Virus record (IMG/VR): IMGVR_UViG_3300048930_000097
Span: 1 to 21,051 of that record
Length of the DNA: 21,051 nucleotides
Strand: one strand, 5' to 3'
From: a virus
Shown piece after piece: positions 2,936 to 15,227 of this stretch (position 1 is the first letter of the stretch; every line of letters starts with the position of its first letter). A program made the position numbers and the translations under genes. The notes beneath the pieces are model-generated. The model searched no databases, was not told the DNA's origin, and saw only the letters and a program-made list of their open reading frames with translations.

Positions 2936-3490
2936 ATGGTCATGGAGGTCAGCGTCAAGGGTGACGTGGATGCTGTTCTCAAGGACCTGGGTAGCCTAAG
3001 CCTGCGAGTAGATATTGCCATTGCCCAAGCGCTGAACCGCACGGCTGCGCGGGCAAAGACCCAAGCTGTACGCACCATTGCGAAGGAAAGCGGGATTCAG
3101 CAGAAGGCTGTCCGAGACAGGATCGCCATACGCAAGGCCTCGAGCTATGCGCTGCACGCGATCATCAGTGCCGAGCCCTATGCGCCGAACCTGATTCGCT
3201 ACAGCGCACGACAGACCAAGCGAGGCGTGAGCGCCAACGCATGGCGCAAACGCAGGATCTACCCCCGCACGTTCATCGCCAACCAAGGCAGGACGGTATT
3301 CAAGCGTATAGGCAAGGCGCGGCTGCCCATCCGGCCGGTGTATGGACCCAGCATTCCGCGCACGTTCATGCAGCGCGTGACGAACGAGGCCATGACACAG
3401 GCGGTCAGAGAGAGATTCCCTGTCGAGTTCACTCGTGCGCTGAACCTGCAACTGCGCCGTCGTGGGCTGATGTTGATATCGCTGGAATGA
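2936..3490 (+). CDS. Minor tail protein Z-like (gpZ family)
   Basis: This 184-residue basic protein matches the size and layout of lambda gpZ (about 192 residues), a tail-completion protein needed for a functional tail end at the head joint. Visible family features are an N-terminal VKGDVDAVLKDL helix region, ALNRTAARAKTQAVRTIAKESGI followed by a short basic domain (VRDRIAIRKAS), a central YPRTFIANQGR.TVFKR segment, and the C-terminal VYGPSIPRTFM motif with a helical tail. ATG 2936 has GAGGGA eight bases upstream; ATG 2942 has GAGG at the same distance, so either could be used. In lambda, Z lies between FII and U; here it precedes the terminase genes and U follows FII directly. Confidence 0.82.
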   Translation: MVMEVSVKGDVDAVLKDLGSLSLRVDIAIAQALNRTAARAKTQAVRTIAKESGIQQKAVRDRIAIRKASSYALHAIISAEPYAPNLIRYSARQTKRGVSANAWRKRRIYPRTFIANQGRTVFKRIGKARLPIRPVYGPSIPRTFMQRVTNEAMTQAVRERFPVEFTRALNLQLRRRGLMLISLE

Positions 3491-3605: not shown

Positions 3606-4190
3606 GTGCAGTTTCCCACGCTGAACGGCCGCCAATTCGCCGAATTGATAGGGATGTCGCAGGCGTCCGTGTCGGGATTTATACGCGATGGAATGCCGAG
3701 CGAGAACGGCGGGCGCAATGGGCGCGGCGTTCAGATCGATCCGGCTGCCGCCATCCCGTGGGTAATCAACCACCGCGAGCCGGCGGGTTCGCAGCGCGAG
3801 CGGCTGGCGAAAGAGCAGGCCGACAAGGTTGCTATGGAGAACGAGACGCGGCGCGGCCGGCTGATCGATATCGCCATTGTCGAGGAGGTACTGATGGTGA
3901 AAGCCGCATATCTCGCGCAGGCACACGACGCGGTCTCAGGGCGGCTCGCACATGAACTTGCAGGTATCACCGATCCCGGACTCATCCGCACGAGACTTCT
4001 TGCCGAAATGCGAGAGATTCGAGCAGGGGTCGCGGAGCACACTCTGCGCACTGCCGACGCTATCGATCGCATTGCGCAAGACGTCGAGCATCGAGACGCC
4101 GCCGCCGAACCGGACGGCGAGCCAGTGGGCGGATCAGACGCGGCGCCTGCCGGAAGGAAGCGCCGAGCCCGGAAGGTGGCGAAGCAGTAG
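3606..4190 (+). CDS. terS: Terminase small subunit, Nu1-like
   Basis: The small terminase recognises the packaging site and loads the large subunit. The N-terminal ~50 residues form a winged-helix/HTH (LNGRQFAELIGMSQASVSGFIRDGMP, then a glycine-rich wing) as in lambda Nu1. Residues 60-95 (RERLAKEQADKVAMENETRRG) are the helical segment typical of Nu1, followed by helices ending in THTLRT-like sequence near residue 147. The Arg/Lys-rich tail (RKRRARKVAKQ) has unusual composition because it overlaps the start of the large subunit in another frame. The GTG start is supported by GAAGGA five bases upstream. At 194 residues it is close to Nu1 (181). It is followed in overlap by the large terminase. 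Confidence 0.87.
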   Translation: MQFPTLNGRQFAELIGMSQASVSGFIRDGMPSENGGRNGRGVQIDPAAAIPWVINHREPAGSQRERLAKEQADKVAMENETRRGRLIDIAIVEEVLMVKAAYLAQAHDAVSGRLAHELAGITDPGLIRTRLLAEMREIRAGVAEHTLRTADAIDRIAQDVEHRDAAAEPDGEPVGGSDAAPAGRKRRARKVAKQ

Positions 4191-6009
4191 GACGCCGTAC
4201 TGCATTCCGATTGTCGAGGCGTGTTCGGACCCGAAATATCGACGGGTCACTGCGATCATGGGATCGCAGATGGGCAAGACCGAGGCGTTGTTCAACGTCA
4301 TCGGTCACAAGCTCGATGACGATCCGGCGCCGATTCTGTACTTCGGGCCGACGAAGTCGAACATCGACGGCGTGATCGAGCCGCGTGTGGCGCAGATGTT
4401 GAGGTCTGCGCCGTCACTCTGGGCAAAGACCCTGCAAGGCCGGCGCGCGCAGAAGCTCGTTAAACGCGTAGCGGGCGTCACGTTGCGCCTGGCGTGGGCG
4501 GGTTCTCCAACAGAGCTCGCCTCGCAGCCGGCTCATACGGTGCTCGCGGATGAGGTGGATCGCATGGAGCCGATCCCCGGGGAAGGCGACCCGCTCACGC
4601 TCGCCGAGGCGCGCATTGCGACGTATCCCGACGGCCGGCTGATCGTCACGTCGACGCCCACGGAAGGGAACGTCGAGACCTACATTCACCCGGACACGGG
4701 GATCGAGCACTGGAAGGTGGCGAAACCCGAGGACATTGCGAGCCCGTCCTGGAAGCTATGGCAGGAGGGCACGCGGTTCGAGTGGGCGGTGCCATGCCCG
4801 GAGTGCGACGAATACTTCGTCCCGCGCTTCAAGCTGCTGTGGTGGCCGAAAGGCGCCACGGCGCGTCAGGCGCTTCGAGAGTCACGATTGACGTGCGCGC
4901 GCTGCGGCACGCAGATCGAGGATCACAAGAAGACCTGGATGAACGAGCGCGGGCACTACCTAGCGCCCGGGCAGAAGGTCGAGAACGGCGTGGTGGTCGG
5001 CGAGCCGCCGGAAGCGTCGGATGCGTCGTTCTGGGCGTCTGCACTGATGTCGCCTTGGGTGACGTTCGGCAAGCGGGCATCCGACTGGATCAAGGCGGTT
5101 GCCAGCGGCGATCCGGATCGTATCCGGGGCGTGCTGAACACTGCGTTTGGCGAACTGTACCGCGTGGGCGGCGAAGCGCCCCCGTGGCAACGAATCCGGG
5201 ATCTGTGCGGCGAGTACACGAGCGGCGATGTGCCGCCCGGTGTTGAGTCGATCACTGCGTTCATCGACGTACAAAAGGATCGGCTGATCTACGCCATTCG
5301 CGGCTGGGGCGCCGGCATGCAGTCCTGGCTAATCGAGGCGGGCGAGCTGTGGGGCGACACCGAGCTCGATGACGTATGGCAGCAGCTCGGAGAGTTTCGG
5401 GACCGCAAGTTCGGCGAACGCGAAATTCGGATCAAGCGCATCGGCATCGATTCGGGGTATCGGCCGGGAGACGTGAAGCGCACGCCGGACAACCGGATCT
5501 ACGAGTTCTGCCGCCGATACAAGGGCTGGGCGCTGCCGACGAAAGGCCGCGATCGGATGGCGAAGCCGCTCAGCCCGTCGCTGATCGACGTGACGGTGCG
5601 CGGCAAGGTCGTGAAGAACGGCCTGCAGCTCTGGCACATGGACACCGACTTCTTCAAGTCGTGGGTCTACGCGAGATTCGAGTGGCCGAAAGATCAGCCT
5701 GGGGGCTGGTCCGTGCCGCAGGACGTGACCGACGACTACTGCCAGCAAGTCACGGCTGAAGCGCGCGTGCTGAAGCCCTCCGGCCATGCCGTGTGGCTGA
5801 AGGTCCGCAAGGACAACCACTACCTCGACTGCGAAGCCGGGGCGGTGGCGATGGCGTACTCGCTCGGATTGCATACGCGAGTAAAGCCGAGACGGGAAGC
5901 CGCTTCGCAGGCAGCGGCGGCACAAGTGATTCACGCTGCGCCACCACCAGCGCAAGCCGTGCAACGGTCAACGGGTCGCTTTGTTCGCAGAGGGAATTTC
6001 CGCCGATGA
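3952..6009 (+). CDS. terL: Terminase large subunit, GpA family
   Basis: This is the ATP-driven packaging motor and nuclease that cuts concatemeric DNA. Numbering from ATG 3952: adenine/entry motif around 55-80 (QWADQTRRLPEGSAEPGRW), Walker A-like GSQMGKT at 104-110, Walker B VLADE at 197-201, paired Cys motifs C282/C285 and C315/C318 (a zinc-ribbon-like insertion), and nuclease-domain acidic residues D439 (FIDVQ), D500 (IGIDSG) and D626 (YLDCEAG). The Ala-rich C-terminal tail probably contacts the portal. The first ~45 residues lie out of frame over nu1 and do not look conserved; TTG 4072 is an alternative start, as homology-like sequence begins near 4105. No strong ribosome site is seen, suggesting coupling to nu1. 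The stop overlaps the gpW-like start (ATGA). Confidence 0.93.
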   Translation: MNLQVSPIPDSSARDFLPKCERFEQGSRSTLCALPTLSIALRKTSSIETPPPNRTASQWADQTRRLPEGSAEPGRWRSSRTPYCIPIVEACSDPKYRRVTAIMGSQMGKTEALFNVIGHKLDDDPAPILYFGPTKSNIDGVIEPRVAQMLRSAPSLWAKTLQGRRAQKLVKRVAGVTLRLAWAGSPTELASQPAHTVLADEVDRMEPIPGEGDPLTLAEARIATYPDGRLIVTSTPTEGNVETYIHPDTGIEHWKVAKPEDIASPSWKLWQEGTRFEWAVPCPECDEYFVPRFKLLWWPKGATARQALRESRLTCARCGTQIEDHKKTWMNERGHYLAPGQKVENGVVVGEPPEASDASFWASALMSPWVTFGKRASDWIKAVASGDPDRIRGVLNTAFGELYRVGGEAPPWQRIRDLCGEYTSGDVPPGVESITAFIDVQKDRLIYAIRGWGAGMQSWLIEAGELWGDTELDDVWQQLGEFRDRKFGEREIRIKRIGIDSGYRPGDVKRTPDNRIYEFCRRYKGWALPTKGRDRMAKPLSPSLIDVTVRGKVVKNGLQLWHMDTDFFKSWVYARFEWPKDQPGGWSVPQDVTDDYCQQVTAEARVLKPSGHAVWLKVRKDNHYLDCEAGAVAMAYSLGLHTRVKPRREAASQAAAAQVIHAAPPPAQAVQRSTGRFVRRGNFRR

Positions 6010-6242: not shown

Positions 6243-7801
6243 GCTGGTTCAATCGATACATCGTCGGCGCCTTCTCGCCGCGTCGCGCACTGATGCGTGA
6301 GCGCTACGCGAAGGGGCTCAGGGCGTACTACGAGGCCGCTGAGCCCTCGCGGATGCGCAAGACGCGCACCGACCGACGTAGTGCCAACGCGCTTAACGAA
6401 CGGGCCATCGTGCCGATCCGTACGACAGCGAGGCACCTAGACGAGAACTACGATATCGCCTCTGGCATCCTCGACGTTCTGGTCGCGAATGTCGTGGGCA
6501 CCGGCATTCAGCCGGAGCCGCAAGTGATGATGGCCGATGGCACGCCGGCCGAGGTCGTCAATCGCCGGCTGCTACAGATCTTCGAGGACTGGCGATTCTT
6601 CCCGGAAGTCACGGGACAGCACGACTATTACGGTCAGCAAAGCGTGACCGCGCGGTCATGGCTGAGGGACGGTGAGTGCTTCACGCAGCGCATTATCGGC
6701 ACGGTCCCGGGCCTCGATCACGGGACGATCGTGCCGTACTCGCTCGAGGCGCTAGAGGCGGACTTCGTGCCGGTCGACTACAGCGACTCGGCACTCGGCA
6801 TCACCCAGGGTGTTGAGCTCTCGGCATGGGGGCGGCCGCGTGCGTATCACGTATTCAAGCATCACCCGGGCGACGGCATCATGGTCACGGCCGAGCGCAA
6901 GCGCGTGCCGAGCGATCGCATGATGCACCTGGCCTTTCGAAAGCGCCTGCACCAGGTGCGCGGCATGTCGGTGTTCGCCACGATCATCAATCGCCTCGAG
7001 GACATCAAAGGAGTCGACGAGGACGAGCGACTGGCGGCGCGCGTGGCAGCCGCGATGGCGGCGGTCATCAAGAAGGGCTCGCCGGATGGATATGAAGCGC
7101 CGGACGAGATCGGCGCCGATGGATTGCCGGTGGCACGTCAGATGCAGTTCGAGGGCGGCATCATCTTCGACGACCTGCGTCCCGGAGAATCCGTCGAGAC
7201 GATCGACACGAAGCGGCCGAACAATGCGCTGATTCCGTTTCGCGACGCTCAGCTCAAGGCAATCGCTGCTGGCGCCGGCTCGTCGTATTCGTCGATCTCG
7301 AAGAACTACGACGGGACCTACTCGGCGCAGCGCCAGGAGCTGGTCGAGCACTACATGCTCTACCAGATGCTGGCGTCGCCGTTCGTCTATCGGTACTGCC
7401 AGCCGGTTTGGGACGGGCTTGTCGACGCTTCGCTTGCGAGTGGCGCACTGATCCTGCCGGCCGGCGTGAACCGGGAAACCCTGTACGACTGCACGCACAC
7501 CGGGCCGGCCATGCCGTGGGTGGATCCGGAGAAGGAAGTCAACGCGCAGATCCTCGCGATGCAGTGGCGGCTTACCTCGCGCTCGAGCGTTATCCGTGCG
7601 CGCGGCGACAACCCGGACCAGGTCAACCGCGAGATCGTGCGAGACGCGGCCGAAATGGAGCGTCTCGGCATCCAGTTCATGGACGGCGCCGCGGCGCTCG
7701 AGCGTGGTGCCGACGAGGGTGCACGGCGGCGCAAGGCCGCCGATGCATTGACGCGCGGCCCCCATCTGCTCAACACCGTCCGCCCCTCACTGCGGGCATA
7801 A
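6239..7801 (+). CDS. Portal protein, lambda gpB family
   Basis: A 520-residue protein close to lambda gpB (533), forming the dodecameric ring through which DNA enters and to which the tail joins. The N-terminus (MSWFNRYIVGAFSPRRAL) and the early RRSANALNERAIVPIRTTARHLDENYDIASGILD block are typical of this family, as are VVGTGIQPEP, the WLRDGECF motif, a QVRGMSVFA segment and the SYSSISKNYDGTYSAQRQELVE region. The start is ATG 6239 in an ATGA overlap with the gpW-like gene; the longer in-frame ORF from 6161 would run through gpW and is unlikely. The C-terminal ~40 residues are charged and poorly structured, usual for this family, where the portal end is trimmed by the head protease. Confidence 0.93.
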   Translation: MSWFNRYIVGAFSPRRALMRERYAKGLRAYYEAAEPSRMRKTRTDRRSANALNERAIVPIRTTARHLDENYDIASGILDVLVANVVGTGIQPEPQVMMADGTPAEVVNRRLLQIFEDWRFFPEVTGQHDYYGQQSVTARSWLRDGECFTQRIIGTVPGLDHGTIVPYSLEALEADFVPVDYSDSALGITQGVELSAWGRPRAYHVFKHHPGDGIMVTAERKRVPSDRMMHLAFRKRLHQVRGMSVFATIINRLEDIKGVDEDERLAARVAAAMAAVIKKGSPDGYEAPDEIGADGLPVARQMQFEGGIIFDDLRPGESVETIDTKRPNNALIPFRDAQLKAIAAGAGSSYSSISKNYDGTYSAQRQELVEHYMLYQMLASPFVYRYCQPVWDGLVDASLASGALILPAGVNRETLYDCTHTGPAMPWVDPEKEVNAQILAMQWRLTSRSSVIRARGDNPDQVNREIVRDAAEMERLGIQFMDGAAALERGADEGARRRKAADALTRGPHLLNTVRPSLRA

Positions 7802-7810
7802 GGAGTCACA

Positions 7811-9901
7811 GTGCCAATTCAAGTACTTGCCCGCGCGGGCGGCCGCGCGGAGATTCTGATCCATGAGCCGATCGGGGAGAACTGGTACGGCGACGGTTTC
7901 ACGTCGAAGCGCTTCGACGCCGATCTCAATGCGCTGGGTGACGTGGCCGAAATTCTCGTTCGCATCAACTCGCCGGGCGGCGCCGTGTGGGATGGGTTGG
8001 CGATCTTCAATGCGCTGAAAGATCACCCGGCGCGCGTCGAGGTCGTCGTGGAAGGCGTTGCCGCTTCCATCGCCTCCGTGATCGCGATGTCCGGCGACAC
8101 GATTCGCATGGGCGAAGGCGCCATGATGATGATTCACAACCCGTGGACCGTCGCGATTGGCGATGCCGATGACATGCGCGGCGTCGCGGAAATGCTCGAC
8201 AAGGTCGGCGAGTCACTGCTCGACGTATATGAGAAGCGCACAGGCCTCGCGCGCGCCGAGATTCGCACCATGCTCGATGCCGAGACCTGGCTGACCGCCA
8301 CCGAGGCGGTCGAGAAGGGTTTTGCGGACGAGGCTGCGGCCGCGGAGACCGAGCAGGACGAAGCAGCGGCCGCGCTGCATACCGAGCATCGCGAGCGCTT
8401 TGCGCGCCTCGCCTCTGATTTCCGTCGCAAGACGGATTCAACTCCGCTGCGGATCGCCGCGGCGGCCTTCCAGTCGGTGAAAGCCGACGCAACTCCCCGT
8501 AAGGAGACGACGATGCCTGACAAGGCAACTGCGTCGGTGGAAAACGCCGACCTCGAGAACGCTCGCCGCGAAGGTGAGCAGACCGCCATCAAGGCGGAAA
8601 CGGAACGCCGCCGGCAGATTCGTGATGCATTCGGAGTGTTCTCCGACGCGCACCGCGAGCTGCTCGACGAGTGCATCGATGATCCGAAGATCTCGGCCGA
8701 TGCTGCACGAGCCCGCCTTCTGGCGAAGCTCGGGGACGGTGTGGAGCCGCTGGCCTCGGTATCGCCGGGCCGCGATGCCTCGGAGGGCTTCATGGAGGGC
8801 GCCGGTAAGGCGCTGGCCATCCGCGCTGGCCTCGAAGCGCGGCCCGATCGCGGCAACGAGTACAGCGGCATGACGCTGTCCGATCTGGCCGCCAAGGCGC
8901 TGAGCATTCGCGGCATCAGCGTCAAGGGGCTCACGCGCGATGGCATTGCGCGACGAGTGCTTGCCTCGCAGACGACGAGCGACTTCCCGTCGCTGCTCGC
9001 GAACACGGCCGGCAAGGTGCTGCGCAATGCGTACAGCAACTATCCGAACACGTGGCAGCAGTGGGCGGCTGCTGGCCAGGTCTCGGACTTCAAGGTCCAC
9101 TCGCGCATCCAGCTCGGCTCGTTCAACAACCTCGACACCATTGTCGAGGGCGGCGAGTACACCTACGGCGGCCTGAAGGAAGAGGCCGAGAGCGCGCAGG
9201 CGGTGACGAAGGGCAAGGCGCTGTTGCTCACTCGTCAGATGGTCGTGAATGACGACCTGGGTGGCTTCACGCGTCGCGCGTTCCTCATGGGCCGCGCGGC
9301 GGCGCGCAGCGTCAACACAGACGCTTATGCGTTCCTGACGGGCGGCACGAGCAATCACGGCCCGACGAGCGGCGATGGCGGCCAGTACTTCAACGCCAAC
9401 GCACCCTCGGCCTCTGGCAGTGGCCACGGGAACCTGACGGACAGCGGGACGGCGATCACGACCGCGTCGATCGCGCTCGGTCGCAAGACCATGCGCGTGC
9501 AGAAGGACAAGAGCGTGCGCGAGACGCTCAACATCCTGCCGAAGGTGCTGCTGTGCTCGGCGACGAAGGAGGACATCGCCTGGGCGGTGCTGAACTCGAC
9601 GTCGGACTTCGGCAGCTCGCAGGCGAATCCGGGCAAAAAGAACTACGCGGCGGATGTCGCGAAGCTCACGCTGGTCACGGATCCGTACCTCGACGGCATC
9701 AACTCGGCGCTGCCCTGGTACCTCTTCGCCGATCCGAACGACATCGCGGCCTTCGAGGTCGTGTTCCTGGACGGCGTGCAGACGCCGTTCCTCGACGAGA
9801 TGGTGGACTTCGACACCGACTCGATGAAGTTCAAGGTGCGCCTCGACTACGGCATCGCCTGCGGCGACTGGCGTGCGGGGTATCTGAACGACGGCGCCTG
9901 A
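7811..9901 (+). CDS. ClpP-like prohead protease fused to scaffold and major capsid protein
   Basis: One 696-residue frame carries three parts. Residues 1-~200 are a ClpP/S49-like protease: INSPGGAVWDG (53-62), nucleophile Ser86 in GVAASIAS, and His109 in MMMIHNP. Residues ~235-385 are charged and helical (for example ENARREGEQ) and probably act as scaffold/delta domain. Residues ~385-696 are the major head protein, resembling the Mu gpT-type fold (NTWQQWAAAGQVSDFK, GEYTYGGLKEEAES, ending GDWRAGYLNDGA). GTG 7811 is preceded by AAGGAG. Inside, a strong ribosome site and ATG (8513) allow the capsid part to be made separately. In lambda C, Nu3 and E are separate genes. A terminator-like hairpin follows the stop. 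Confidence 0.9.
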   Translation: MPIQVLARAGGRAEILIHEPIGENWYGDGFTSKRFDADLNALGDVAEILVRINSPGGAVWDGLAIFNALKDHPARVEVVVEGVAASIASVIAMSGDTIRMGEGAMMMIHNPWTVAIGDADDMRGVAEMLDKVGESLLDVYEKRTGLARAEIRTMLDAETWLTATEAVEKGFADEAAAAETEQDEAAAALHTEHRERFARLASDFRRKTDSTPLRIAAAAFQSVKADATPRKETTMPDKATASVENADLENARREGEQTAIKAETERRRQIRDAFGVFSDAHRELLDECIDDPKISADAARARLLAKLGDGVEPLASVSPGRDASEGFMEGAGKALAIRAGLEARPDRGNEYSGMTLSDLAAKALSIRGISVKGLTRDGIARRVLASQTTSDFPSLLANTAGKVLRNAYSNYPNTWQQWAAAGQVSDFKVHSRIQLGSFNNLDTIVEGGEYTYGGLKEEAESAQAVTKGKALLLTRQMVVNDDLGGFTRRAFLMGRAAARSVNTDAYAFLTGGTSNHGPTSGDGGQYFNANAPSASGSGHGNLTDSGTAITTASIALGRKTMRVQKDKSVRETLNILPKVLLCSATKEDIAWAVLNSTSDFGSSQANPGKKNYAADVAKLTLVTDPYLDGINSALPWYLFADPNDIAAFEVVFLDGVQTPFLDEMVDFDTDSMKFKVRLDYGIACGDWRAGYLNDGA
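8501..8515 (+). promoter_or_regulatory. Internal ribosome binding site and start for separate scaffold-capsid product
   Basis: AAGGAG at 8501-8506 sits six bases before an in-frame ATG at 8513-8515 (Met235 of the fusion), as good a site as any in the operon. It falls exactly at the junction between the protease domain and the charged scaffold-like segment. Initiation here would give a 462-residue scaffold-capsid protein without the protease, parallel to lambda Nu3 starting inside C. Production is inferred. Confidence 0.65.
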
Positions 9902-9985: not shown

Positions 9986-10357
9986 ATGACTGACAAGTTC
10001 GTCGCCCGTGGCGACGTGATGAACTACGTGGCTGGCGGGACGATTACCTCCGGCCAGGTCGTGGTAACCGGCCACACGCTGGGCGTGGCGCTGAAGGGCG
10101 GCGGCTCTGGCGATACGATCCCGGTGGCGATCGAGGGCGTGTTCGAACTGCCCAAGGTCTCGGCGGCCGTGTTTGCGATCGGCGAGAAGCTGGTCTTCGA
10201 CGTCTCGGCCGCTGCCGGCGCTGGCGAGTTCGATGACTCGGCGGCCTCCCCGGCGACTGGCGACATCACCGGCGGTGCTATCGCGATGCGTGCGGGTCTC
10301 AACACCGAGACCACGTGCCTCGTGAAGCTCACGCCGGGCAACGCGACCAAGACCTGA
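9986..10357 (+). CDS. DUF2190-family capsid decoration/stabilisation protein
   Basis: A 123-residue beta-rich protein in the gpD position, directly after the capsid gene. The DUF2190 pattern is clear: an N-terminal FVARGDVMNYVAGGTITSGQVVV, then VALKGGGSGDTIPVAIEGVFELPK and a TCLVKLTPG end. Members of this family are small phage proteins regularly encoded beside major capsid genes and are generally considered head cement or decoration proteins, which fits here. The ATG has GAAGGAG (9972-9978) seven bases upstream. The gene is bracketed by two GC-rich hairpins, so it may have its own mRNA segment with level or stability different from the flanking genes. Confidence 0.87.
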   Translation: MTDKFVARGDVMNYVAGGTITSGQVVVTGHTLGVALKGGGSGDTIPVAIEGVFELPKVSAAVFAIGEKLVFDVSAAAGAGEFDDSAASPATGDITGGAIAMRAGLNTETTCLVKLTPGNATKT

Positions 10358-11140: not shown

Positions 11141-11707
11141 ATGACTTATCTGGATTCCGTGGATCTAGAGAAGCGGCGCGAACGTAAGCGAGAAAGTACT
11201 CGCAAATGGCGCATGTTGAATCCAGAGAAATCGCGCGAAAGTGAGATCAGATATCGAGAGGCCAATCGCGAAAAGATACGCGAAAGGAGTCGCGCGTGGC
11301 ACGCGGCCAACGGTGCAGCATGGCGTGCGGCAAATATAGAAAAACTCCGCGAGAGCGCACGCAATTGGTATGCCGCCAACGCAGAGAAGGCCCGTTGGCA
11401 AGCTAGAGCGCACAAGCGAAAGCGCGCCGGCCTACCTGAACCTACGCGTCCGCAGCCGGCTTCTTGCGAGTGCTGCGGCGGTCCGCCACAGGGCATCGGC
11501 AAGCAGCACGGCACTCTGCATCTGGATCACGATCATAAGACCGGCGCATTCCGCGGGTGGCTCTGCAGTAAATGCAATCACGCTCTCGGCTTGTTGGGAG
11601 ATGATATTGCCGGAGTAGACCGCGCGCGTTCATATCTGCTTAAACACGCAGCATGCAACGTGCAGAATGCTTTTGCAGGTTTCCTGCTGGATCAAAATGT
11701 AAACTGA
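11141..11707 (+). CDS. Free-standing HNH endonuclease, endonuclease VII-like fold
   Basis: A 188-residue basic protein. Residues 10-95 are helical and built of imperfect repeats such as REANREKIRERSRAW and AANIEKLRESARNWY, a likely DNA-binding arm. Residues 105-160 hold the nuclease: C109/C112 (CECC), LHLDHDHKTGAFRG (126-139) and LCSKCNHALGLL (141-152), the zinc-bound beta-beta-alpha HNH of the phage T4 endonuclease VII-like group. It has its own AGGA site, and sits between the U- and V-like genes where lambda has none, with base composition less GC-rich than its neighbours. It is probably a mobile homing-type gene; a genome resolution or packaging role is less likely because of its location in the tail block. 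Confidence 0.85.
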   Translation: MTYLDSVDLEKRRERKRESTRKWRMLNPEKSRESEIRYREANREKIRERSRAWHAANGAAWRAANIEKLRESARNWYAANAEKARWQARAHKRKRAGLPEPTRPQPASCECCGGPPQGIGKQHGTLHLDHDHKTGAFRGWLCSKCNHALGLLGDDIAGVDRARSYLLKHAACNVQNAFAGFLLDQNVN

Positions 11708-12997: not shown

Positions 12998-13281
12998 GGG
13001 CGATCGCAGTCGCCCTGATCCCAGACTGGGCACCGTGCGGAAACTGCGACTGTCGCGATGGGGTGAACCCCATTCCCAACAAGTGGGAAGTGAAGGACGT
13101 GTTCAGCACCAATCGTTGCCCGCGTCGCGATCAACCCGATGACTGGCCGCTCATGCTGGATCTGCTGCATCACTACCGCAGCGGTCACTTGTGGGTGTCT
13201 GGCGGGCTATCCGATCAGCCGGCGGCCTATATCGAAACCATGTCTCTCATCGAAACCTGGGTGAACAAGCTCCGTGCCTAA
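12680..13281 (+). CDS. Tail assembly chaperone GT fusion by -1 frameshift
   Basis: At A AAA AAA (12985-12991) a -1 slip joins 104 G residues to 96 residues read from 12991 to 13278, giving a 200-residue protein with stop TAA at 13279. The T part opens IIGAIAVALIPDWAPCGNCDC and ends IETWVNKLRA; it contains four cysteines (CGNCDC and NRCP), which could bind a metal. No independent ribosome site or start codon is needed for T; the only internal start (GTG 13063) lacks one. The arrangement equals lambda G/GT: T recruits the tube protein while G holds the tape measure. The tape-measure GTG at 13274 overlaps its stop by 8 bases. Confidence 0.85.
12985..13015 (+). promoter_or_regulatory. Programmed -1 frameshift element (slippery A AAA AAA plus hairpin)
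   Basis: The heptamer 12985-12991 is in the correct frame (CCA AAA AAA TCA TAG). After a six-base spacer that contains the zero-frame stop, GGGCGA (12998-13003) pairs with TCGCCC (13010-13015) around a TCGCAG loop. The spacer length and 6-bp stem suit frameshift stimulation. Confidence 0.85.
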
Positions 13282-14602
13282 CGCCACCGCCCGCTATGTC
13301 ATCACCGCCGACGACAAGACGAAGGGCGCTATTGCGTCGGTCAAGCGCGGTTTCGATGACATCGACAAGGGTGCGCGCAAGCTCTCGAAAGGCTTGAAAG
13401 CGATTGGCGTCGGCGCGCTCGCGCTGAAGGCTTGGGGCATCGCGGCCCGCTTCGCCGACGCGTCGATCCAGAATCTGGCGAAAAGCAACGCGGACTTCGC
13501 GAAAACACTCGCCGAAACGAACGCTGCATTCGCGGACATGAAGCGCGCGGGACCGTTGACGGTTGAGGCATTTGAAGCGCTGAACAAAGCTGCGAAGGAC
13601 CCAGCGCTGCGCGACTCGATGCGCCAAGGCGCCGATCTCACGTCTCGTATGGTGACGGAAGTACGCGCGCTCGGGATCGCGTGGGGCATCGTCGCGGCTC
13701 GCGCGCTCACGGCTCTGGGCATCATCGACAAAGCGCCGCAGCTCGACAGTCGCGGGCCGCAAGGGCGCGGGTTCCCAGATTATCGCGACCTCGGCGACGT
13801 GGATGCGGCCCGAAAACTCGGCACGTCGCAGAACAAAGCCTTCGACGATCTCGCGAAAGCGACTGCTTCGGGCGCTGCCGAGGCCCTGAAACGGGACGTG
13901 CAAGCCGCCAAAGACGCCGCCGCGGCGCTGGACGAATACGCCAAGGGCCTTGTACGCGCGCATGAAATCGGTCGCGAGTTGTCCAAGACCGGCCTGCTCA
14001 GCATCGACCCGCAGCAGTTCGAGGACACGCGCTTCGACCAGTTCGGCGACTCGATTCTGGAGTCCACCGAAGGCATTGCCGATCGGATGAGCGAGGCGCT
14101 GAAAGAGCCGTTCACGGAACTGACGCCGTATGCCGAACAGGCTGCCCGCAACATGCAAGACGCTTTCGCGGACTTCTTGTTCGATCCGTTCGATGATGGC
14201 GTCAAGGGTATGGCGAAGTCGTTCCTCGACACGATCCGCCGTGTGCAAGCGGATAAGTGGTCCGCCAAGCTGTTCGACTGGATCGGTACGAAAAAGGGCA
14301 CGGGCGGCATCCTGGGCGGCCTGAGTAGTCTGCTCGGCTTCGCGCAAGGCGGCGATTTCAAGGTCGGGGGCAATGGCGGCACCGACTCGCAGCTCGTCGC
14401 GTTCAAAGCGACGCCGGGTGAGCGGGTGATCGTGCAGACGCCGGCGCAGCAGGGACGCGGTGGCGGCATCACGATCAATCAGAACGTAGACGCTCGCGGG
14501 GCAAGTGTAGAGCTAACGAAGGCTCTGCCCGGCCTGCTACAGAAAGCATCTGATGATGCCGTATCTCGTATCCAAGATATGGTTTCGAGAGGCCGTTTGT
14601 AA
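13274..14602 (+). CDS. Tail tape-measure protein (short, 442 aa)
   Basis: The gene after G/GT in this gene order encodes the tape measure, which fixes tail length and helps eject DNA. Here it starts MPNATARYVITADDKTKGAIASV, a typical opening of short tape measures. It continues with long Ala-rich helical segments, a hydrophobic LGIAWGIVAARALTALGII stretch (about 133-151), and a C-terminal domain with DNA/assembly-like features: FADFLFDPFDDGVKGMAKSF, KLFDWIG, and QGGDFKVGGNGGTDSQLVAF with PGERV, like the gpH tail end. GTG 13274 overlaps the GT stop. At 442 residues it is about half of lambda gpH (853), predicting a shorter tail. The stop lies two bases before the endonuclease ATG. Confidence 0.86.
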   Translation: MPNATARYVITADDKTKGAIASVKRGFDDIDKGARKLSKGLKAIGVGALALKAWGIAARFADASIQNLAKSNADFAKTLAETNAAFADMKRAGPLTVEAFEALNKAAKDPALRDSMRQGADLTSRMVTEVRALGIAWGIVAARALTALGIIDKAPQLDSRGPQGRGFPDYRDLGDVDAARKLGTSQNKAFDDLAKATASGAAEALKRDVQAAKDAAAALDEYAKGLVRAHEIGRELSKTGLLSIDPQQFEDTRFDQFGDSILESTEGIADRMSEALKEPFTELTPYAEQAARNMQDAFADFLFDPFDDGVKGMAKSFLDTIRRVQADKWSAKLFDWIGTKKGTGGILGGLSSLLGFAQGGDFKVGGNGGTDSQLVAFKATPGERVIVQTPAQQGRGGGITINQNVDARGASVELTKALPGLLQKASDDAVSRIQDMVSRGRL

Positions 14603-14603
14603 A

Positions 14604-15227
14604 ATGAAAGCAAGAAACATTACGGGCCAAGTATTCGGCCGGCTTACTGCGATTGAAAGCATTAGAAGCCACGGTAAGCGCACCGCATGGCGCTGTGAAT
14701 GCGCATGCGGCAATTCGGCTGTCGTGTCAACGTGCAATCTAATGTCCGGCCATACTAGGTCGTGCGGCTGTTTGAATATCGAGTCTCTCGTAAGCCGCAG
14801 CGTTACGCACGGCCAGACGGTCGGCGGGTATACGCCGGAATATCGGGCGTGGTTGAAGATGCGAGAGCGGTGCCTTAACCCGAACACTGAAATGTTCCCC
14901 GCCTACGGCGGACGCGGAATCAAAATCTGTGAGCGGTGGAAATCGTTCGAGAACTTCTATCTCGACATGGGTCGCAAGCCCAGCCGTAACTATTCGCTAG
15001 ATCGTGTTGACGTTGATGGCGATTACGAGCCGGGAAATTGCAGGTGGGCGACCGCAAACGATCAGGCAAGGAATAAGCGTAATAACACTCTTACGACGGA
15101 GAAGGCGGACGCGATCCGCAATCTCTATTCCAGCGGCCGTAAAGTGCGGGACATCGCGCGGGAGGTTGGGTGCGGTTATCACAGCGCATGGAAGGTCGCT
15201 CATAACATCCAGTGGACGAGGCTCTGA
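14604..15227 (+). CDS. Free-standing HNH homing-type endonuclease with C-terminal HTH
   Basis: A 207-residue protein that starts at ATG 14604 with GAGAGG 11 bases upstream (a longer start at 14553 overlaps the tape measure and is less likely). An N-terminal zinc-ribbon-like domain carries WRCECACGN (C31/C33/C35) and SCGC (C54/C56). The nuclease core shows YRAWLKMRERC, YGGRGIKIC (101-109), SLDRVDVDGDYEPGNCRWAT (131-150), the signature of the common phage HNH/AP2-linked homing family. Residues 163-207 form a DNA-binding HTH (TEKADAIRNLYSSGRKVRDIA). It lies between tape measure and tip genes where lambda has nothing, so it is probably a mobile gene; its stop overlaps the next ATG, indicating that it is transcribed with the operon. 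Confidence 0.86.
   Translation: MKARNITGQVFGRLTAIESIRSHGKRTAWRCECACGNSAVVSTCNLMSGHTRSCGCLNIESLVSRSVTHGQTVGGYTPEYRAWLKMRERCLNPNTEMFPAYGGRGIKICERWKSFENFYLDMGRKPSRNYSLDRVDVDGDYEPGNCRWATANDQARNKRNNTLTTEKADAIRNLYSSGRKVRDIAREVGCGYHSAWKVAHNIQWTRL

Follow-up and report, generated by a model that had tools for sequence, protein, structure and literature searches.

A conserved candidate nested start in phage protease-scaffold-capsid fusion genes

A single gene in a 21-kb virus record (IMGVR_UViG_3300048930_000097; "the window" is the whole stretch analysed, 21,051 nt) encodes a ClpP-like protease, a helical scaffold region and a major capsid protein in one frame, and carries a Shine-Dalgarno (SD) sequence and in-frame ATG after the protease domain that are under selection in two families of such fusions. 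We consider that the gene gives rise to two proteins, a polyprotein from GTG 7811 and a scaffold-capsid precursor from ATG 8513, which would co-assemble before cleavage, and we put the probability of this reading at roughly 0.8. Tripartite capsid genes, for example that of Gifsy-2, pose a problem of stoichiometry, as a shell built from hundreds of subunits would enclose an equal number of protease domains. A conserved nested start would be a simple answer to how a one-gene fusion yields far more shell than protease, and for many genes recorded as "fusion proteins" a second product has probably gone unannotated.

The fusion gene and its surroundings

The open reading frame (ORF) occupies positions 7811-9901 of the plus strand, which also carries all of the gene's other features described below. 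It begins with GTG, contains no internal stop, and encodes 696 aa (computed mass of the full-length product, 74.6 kDa). The primary SD, AAGGAG at 7800-7805, lies 5 nt before the GTG with a duplex energy of -8.8 kcal/mol, and overlaps the TAA stop of the portal gene (7799-7801). The surrounding genes are lambda-like head genes: small and large terminase, portal, a decoration protein (9986-10357) and head-tail genes.

Several other features of the window are recorded here. The head-tail block contains an endonuclease VII-like gene (11141-11707), and an HNH endonuclease gene (14553-15227) lies between the tape measure and distal tail genes. The tape measure candidate (13274-14602) has only 442 aa, and it aligns with tape measure profiles at their C-terminal end only. 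Upstream of the terminase genes, rather than downstream of the head genes, is a lambda gpZ-like tail completion gene (2936-3490). The large terminase ORF (3952-6009), if read from ATG 3952, shares 239 bases with the small subunit gene (3606-4190), and translation may in fact begin further downstream.

An earlier note on this DNA had placed a ClpP-like protease and the major capsid protein in a single frame, without knowing that such fusions had been named as a family, and the domain assignments bear this out. The protein matches NCBIfam NF045540 over residues 13-689 (598 bits; curated cut-off 475), as well as PHROG 133, and both features of that family, a predicted N-terminal ClpP-fold protease and an in-frame C-terminal HK97-fold capsid domain, are present. 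The match to NF045541 (359.7 bits) is below the cut-off of that family (525 bits), and covers the scaffold-capsid part only.

The putative maturation protease domain comprises approximately residues 4-180 (residues 4-177 at 7820-8341; Pfam CLP_protease, 8e-31, residues 42-175; NF045542). In the AlphaFold model, this part superposes on solved ClpP structures with a Z of about 23 and an rmsd of 1.9 over 167 residues. The candidate catalytic residues Ser86, His109 and Asp173 are all present, the first two being at least 90% conserved in our alignment A2, and by analogy with ClpP they would form the catalytic triad. A disordered, poorly conserved linker follows (approximately residues 178-243; 8342-8539), with pLDDT values of 28-48 across most of residues 178-248. 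The next domain, which is delta-like (residues 244-366; 8540-8908), is modeled as helices at residues 244-277, 282-290, 296-307, 323-338 and 356-366, and its position, together with the proposal made for phage MD8, suggests a scaffolding role. The HK97-fold major capsid domain occupies residues 376-696 (8936-9898; Pfam Phage_capsid_4, 7e-48, residues 383-691), and in a sequence-profile comparison the nearest capsid of solved structure is 8rkc, a Mu GpT-type protein (8e-13). The full-length model gave only ClpP matches among the matches listed, and the part from residue 235 onward was folded and searched separately; its fold matches are HK97-fold shells, including the JBD30 procapsid subunit (8rkx).

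The nested site within this gene

The nested site consists of AAGGAG at 8501-8506, separated by six bases (8507-8512) from the in-frame ATG 8513 (codon 235), positions that the earlier note gave correctly. The duplex energy is -9.2 kcal/mol, and a counterpart of this SD is kept in relatives. The CDS from this ATG (8513-9901) would encode a 462-aa scaffold-capsid product of 49.4 kDa that begins MPDK and lacks the protease; its predicted N-terminal sequence is (M)PDKATASVENADLE. The site had been described as lying exactly at the domain boundary, which is put a little loosely: Met235 lies in the disordered linker, and 9 residues separate it from the first scaffold helix and about 140 from the capsid domain.

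The site had also been called a strong nested start. When all 39 in-frame start codons are ranked by SD energy, codon 235 is second, and the annotated GTG has -8.8 kcal/mol; first is ATG 8792-8794 (Met328, -10.0 kcal/mol, with GGAGGG at 8782-8787), which is slightly stronger and was missed by the note. We considered whether ATG 8792 could be the nested start instead and rejected it, as it has no counterpart in relatives and gives P 0.35 against the synonymous null; this SD and ATG probably arose by chance. If used, ATG 8792 could yield a capsid product with a truncated scaffold.

When the codons of the gene are shuffled, 4.4% of trials produce an equally good SD and ATG within the linker, and 36% produce one at any position in the gene. 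Synonymous resampling of the window gene gives P=0.086 for Met235. On its own, the window sequence is thus suggestive, and the motif is modest evidence for a nested start. We regard the site as more than chance because of the comparative evidence, and not because of the window alone. The RNA around ATG 8513 shows no unusual openness (-17.8 kcal/mol over 50 nt).

Conservation of the nested site among relatives

Relatives were gathered from viral and genome contigs; all ORFs with the capsid domain were taken, and were then split by protease type. The ClpP-type set contains 70 non-redundant sequences, after dropping those 80% or more alike. SD-bearing ATGs in this set peak at a single place, 130-170 residues before the capsid domain. 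With an SD threshold of -5.5 kcal/mol and a junction zone, both of which were fixed once about 20 sequences had been inspected, these being included in the larger later sets, 61 of 96 junction ATGs have an SD at least this good, compared with 36.5 expected from synonymous resampling (maximum 47 in 200 draws). Counted by gene, 56 of the 70 ORFs have an SD-bearing junction ATG (null 33.6, maximum 42 in 200 draws), although the relatives share phylogeny and such counts are not independent, a dependence that the synonymous null and the within-gene controls reduce but do not abolish. Outside the junction, SD-bearing ATGs are fewer than the null predicts (36 vs 66 in the protease part; 31 vs 49 in the capsid part).

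Among the 14 ORFs that miss the strict threshold, two keep the SD at the same place with an alternative start codon, namely GTG after AAGGAG in L146 and TTG after CAGGAG in L206. In most of the others the SD is weaker or the ATG is displaced; two (L132 and L194) have no good nested-start candidate, and overall two or three of the 70 relatives are without a convincing nested start. In alignment A2, the Met235 position is methionine in 21 of 25 sequences, and most neighboring positions are conserved in fewer than half. The residue directly after the methionine is Pro or Thr for 59 of 101 junction ATGs, compared with 71 of 1325 elsewhere (Fisher 1e-40). This enrichment tracks the SD (49/61 with an SD; 10/40 without), as is expected of genuine N-termini. 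Two candidates for split relatives, in which a separate capsid gene would begin at the junction, proved to be artefacts, one a frameshift-like duplication (L120) and the other a masked-base run (L212).

A second set consists of 41 non-redundant fusions with a protease that is not ClpP, and those scanned pass NF045541. Their N-terminal protease gives no ClpP match, and in one (L181) it matches the HK97 prohead protease model TIGR01543. Here an SD-bearing junction ATG is found in 37 of the 41 ORFs (null 18.4, maximum 26), with the SD core in all three reading frames (20/8/8). The same translational device would thus have been retained with two different proteases. Openness of the RNA at the nested site exceeds the synonymous null only in this family (P=0.01). 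In the ClpP set, it is real relative to the rest of the gene, but is accounted for by the protein sequence (synonymous null -8.2, observed -7.9), and we do not use it there as independent support.

The most durable alternative is that only the full-length fusion is made, each capsid subunit bringing a protease that is trimmed by autoproteolysis, with the SD and ATG being a coincidence or the relic of a separate gene start. Database annotations do give full-length readings, and the shuffling frequencies for this one gene (about 4% in the linker, 36% anywhere) leave some room for coincidence. A relic would be expected to erode, yet in two protease families, and among relatives that share 30-60% identity, the SD stays above the synonymous null, and the swaps to GTG and TTG keep initiation; we regard this explanation as unlikely.

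The site might instead be a feature of the protein, for instance the place at which the protease cuts itself free in the linker, where self-release is expected, with the likeness to an SD arising from Lys and Glu codons in a K/E-rich peptide before the methionine. Many relatives indeed read KE, EE or QE at this point. Yet 59 distinct hexapeptides precede the nested methionine among the ClpP fusions, the SD falls in three frames in the non-ClpP family, and synonymous codon choice favors the SD beyond what the protein sequence dictates. In addition, the methionine is replaced by Val (L146) or Leu (L206) with the SD retained, and we consider the odds of this explanation to be poor, slightly below those of the preceding one. 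Because the SD and start codon, and not the amino acids, are conserved across the two fusion families, a protease-free product starting at Met235, as the earlier note had predicted, is strongly supported by the comparison of sequences.

Two groups of relatives show variants of the site. Sixteen close alphaproteobacterial relatives of the NF045541 type have two successive in-frame nested ATGs, 25 codons apart (residues 208 and 233 in L236), each with a conserved SD. The glycine codon GGA, which makes up about 5% of Gly codons there, is retained in 15 of 16 of these SDs, and synonymous diversity in the 12-codon windows before the two ATGs ranks from 7th to 53rd lowest of 688. The two ATGs may perhaps give two short products. 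In Gifsy-2, Fels-1, MD8, LESphi2, Pmp14, yong2 and the mEp phages, the site takes the form (K/E/Q)E(F/Y)xxMP, 18-22 residues after the ClpP domain, and its SD is GAGGAG, AAGGAG or a shortened form at the long spacing of 9 nt. The argument for a nested start is weaker for these types because the EEF..MP peptide is itself fairly conserved.

Proposed model and comparison with known systems

In the two-protein model, ribosomes starting at GTG 7811 would make the 74.6-kDa protease-scaffold-capsid polyprotein, while independent initiation at ATG 8513 would make the 49.4-kDa scaffold-capsid precursor, equivalent to HK97 gp5 with its delta domain. The two would co-assemble into the procapsid through their common scaffold and capsid parts, and the ClpP-like protease would in this way be enclosed as a minority component. 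It would then cut away the scaffold, as well as itself, with one site probably near residues 370-382. We infer that the nested product supplies the excess of capsid over protease. In lambda, the nested product is the scaffold. That the nested start is used mainly for a transient scaffold or chaperone form, or for a capsid-size regulator, rather than for the bulk subunit has a precedent in Mu, whose nested product is likewise the scaffold (PMC4378225), but is the least probable of the alternatives, a very long shot, as no stop follows the scaffold here and so the nested product always includes the entire capsid domain.

It seems probable, though with less assurance than for the window gene itself, that all protease-scaffold-capsid fusions, with either protease, depend on a nested start for most of their capsid protein, that two ribosome sites set the protease:capsid ratio, and that the alphaproteobacterial branch has two nested starts in succession. 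The fusion is already known (NF045540; Gifsy-2; MD8), and a nested start is an established device for scaffold proteins. We found no description of a nested start for a scaffold-capsid product of these fusions in the open-access literature; what appears to be new, within that literature, is the combination of nested start and fusion, together with its conservation across two protease types.

Isolated phages whose protein is 32-37% identical along almost its entire length include Gifsy-2, Fels-1, F10, MD8, mEp043 and mEp460. The NF045540 types (Gifsy-2, Fels-1, F10, MD8 and mEp460) have the same domain order and length as the window protein. They are named and annotated as a single product, and the nested candidate of the Gifsy-2 and MD8 types is the 9-nt-spacing variant, unlike the 6 nt of the window. 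The MD8 paper proposes that a single gene combines protease, scaffold and capsid protein, and mentions no second start (PMC8508860). The NF045541 fusions have a homologous scaffold-capsid part and the same nested SD and start at the junction, and differ in that their protease is not ClpP.

The earlier note had likened the gene to lambda C/Nu3, and the likeness is apt in one respect: lambda C/Nu3 and Mu I/Z also have an in-frame nested start after the protease domain, which gives a protease-free product. It does not extend to the protease, which in lambda C is an S49-family peptidase (according to its record annotation) and here is ClpP-like, or to the product, since lambda and Mu encode their capsid protein in a gene of its own and have a nested product that is only scaffold, whereas the window frame runs on through the capsid domain. 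When lambda gene C is scanned in the same way, the best internal start is ATG 5342 (-10.8 kcal/mol; next best -6.4), which lies after the protease domain. In the lambda record (NC_001416), Nu3 is annotated from 5132, which has a poor SD (-2.7 kcal/mol), and the same-frame ATG 5342 has CAGGAGGG; from these energies, the annotated Nu3 start may be wrong. Purified gpNu3, which we take to be the shorter form, would fit a start at ATG 5342. A start for the scaffold, nested within the protease gene and preceded by a plausible SD, has been described in Mu-like Pseudomonas phages (PMC4378225).

The major capsid protein of HK97 and D3 has the scaffold (delta)-capsid layout of the window's nested product (PMC12749128). 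Their protease is encoded by a separate upstream gene, whereas in the window it is fused in frame upstream. HK97 proheads contain about 60 protease copies per 415 capsid subunits, and D3 proheads about 90 protease copies (PMC12749128). Because these proheads hold far fewer copies of the protease than of the capsid subunit, a supply of capsid protein uncoupled from that of the protease is plausible for the fusion as well.
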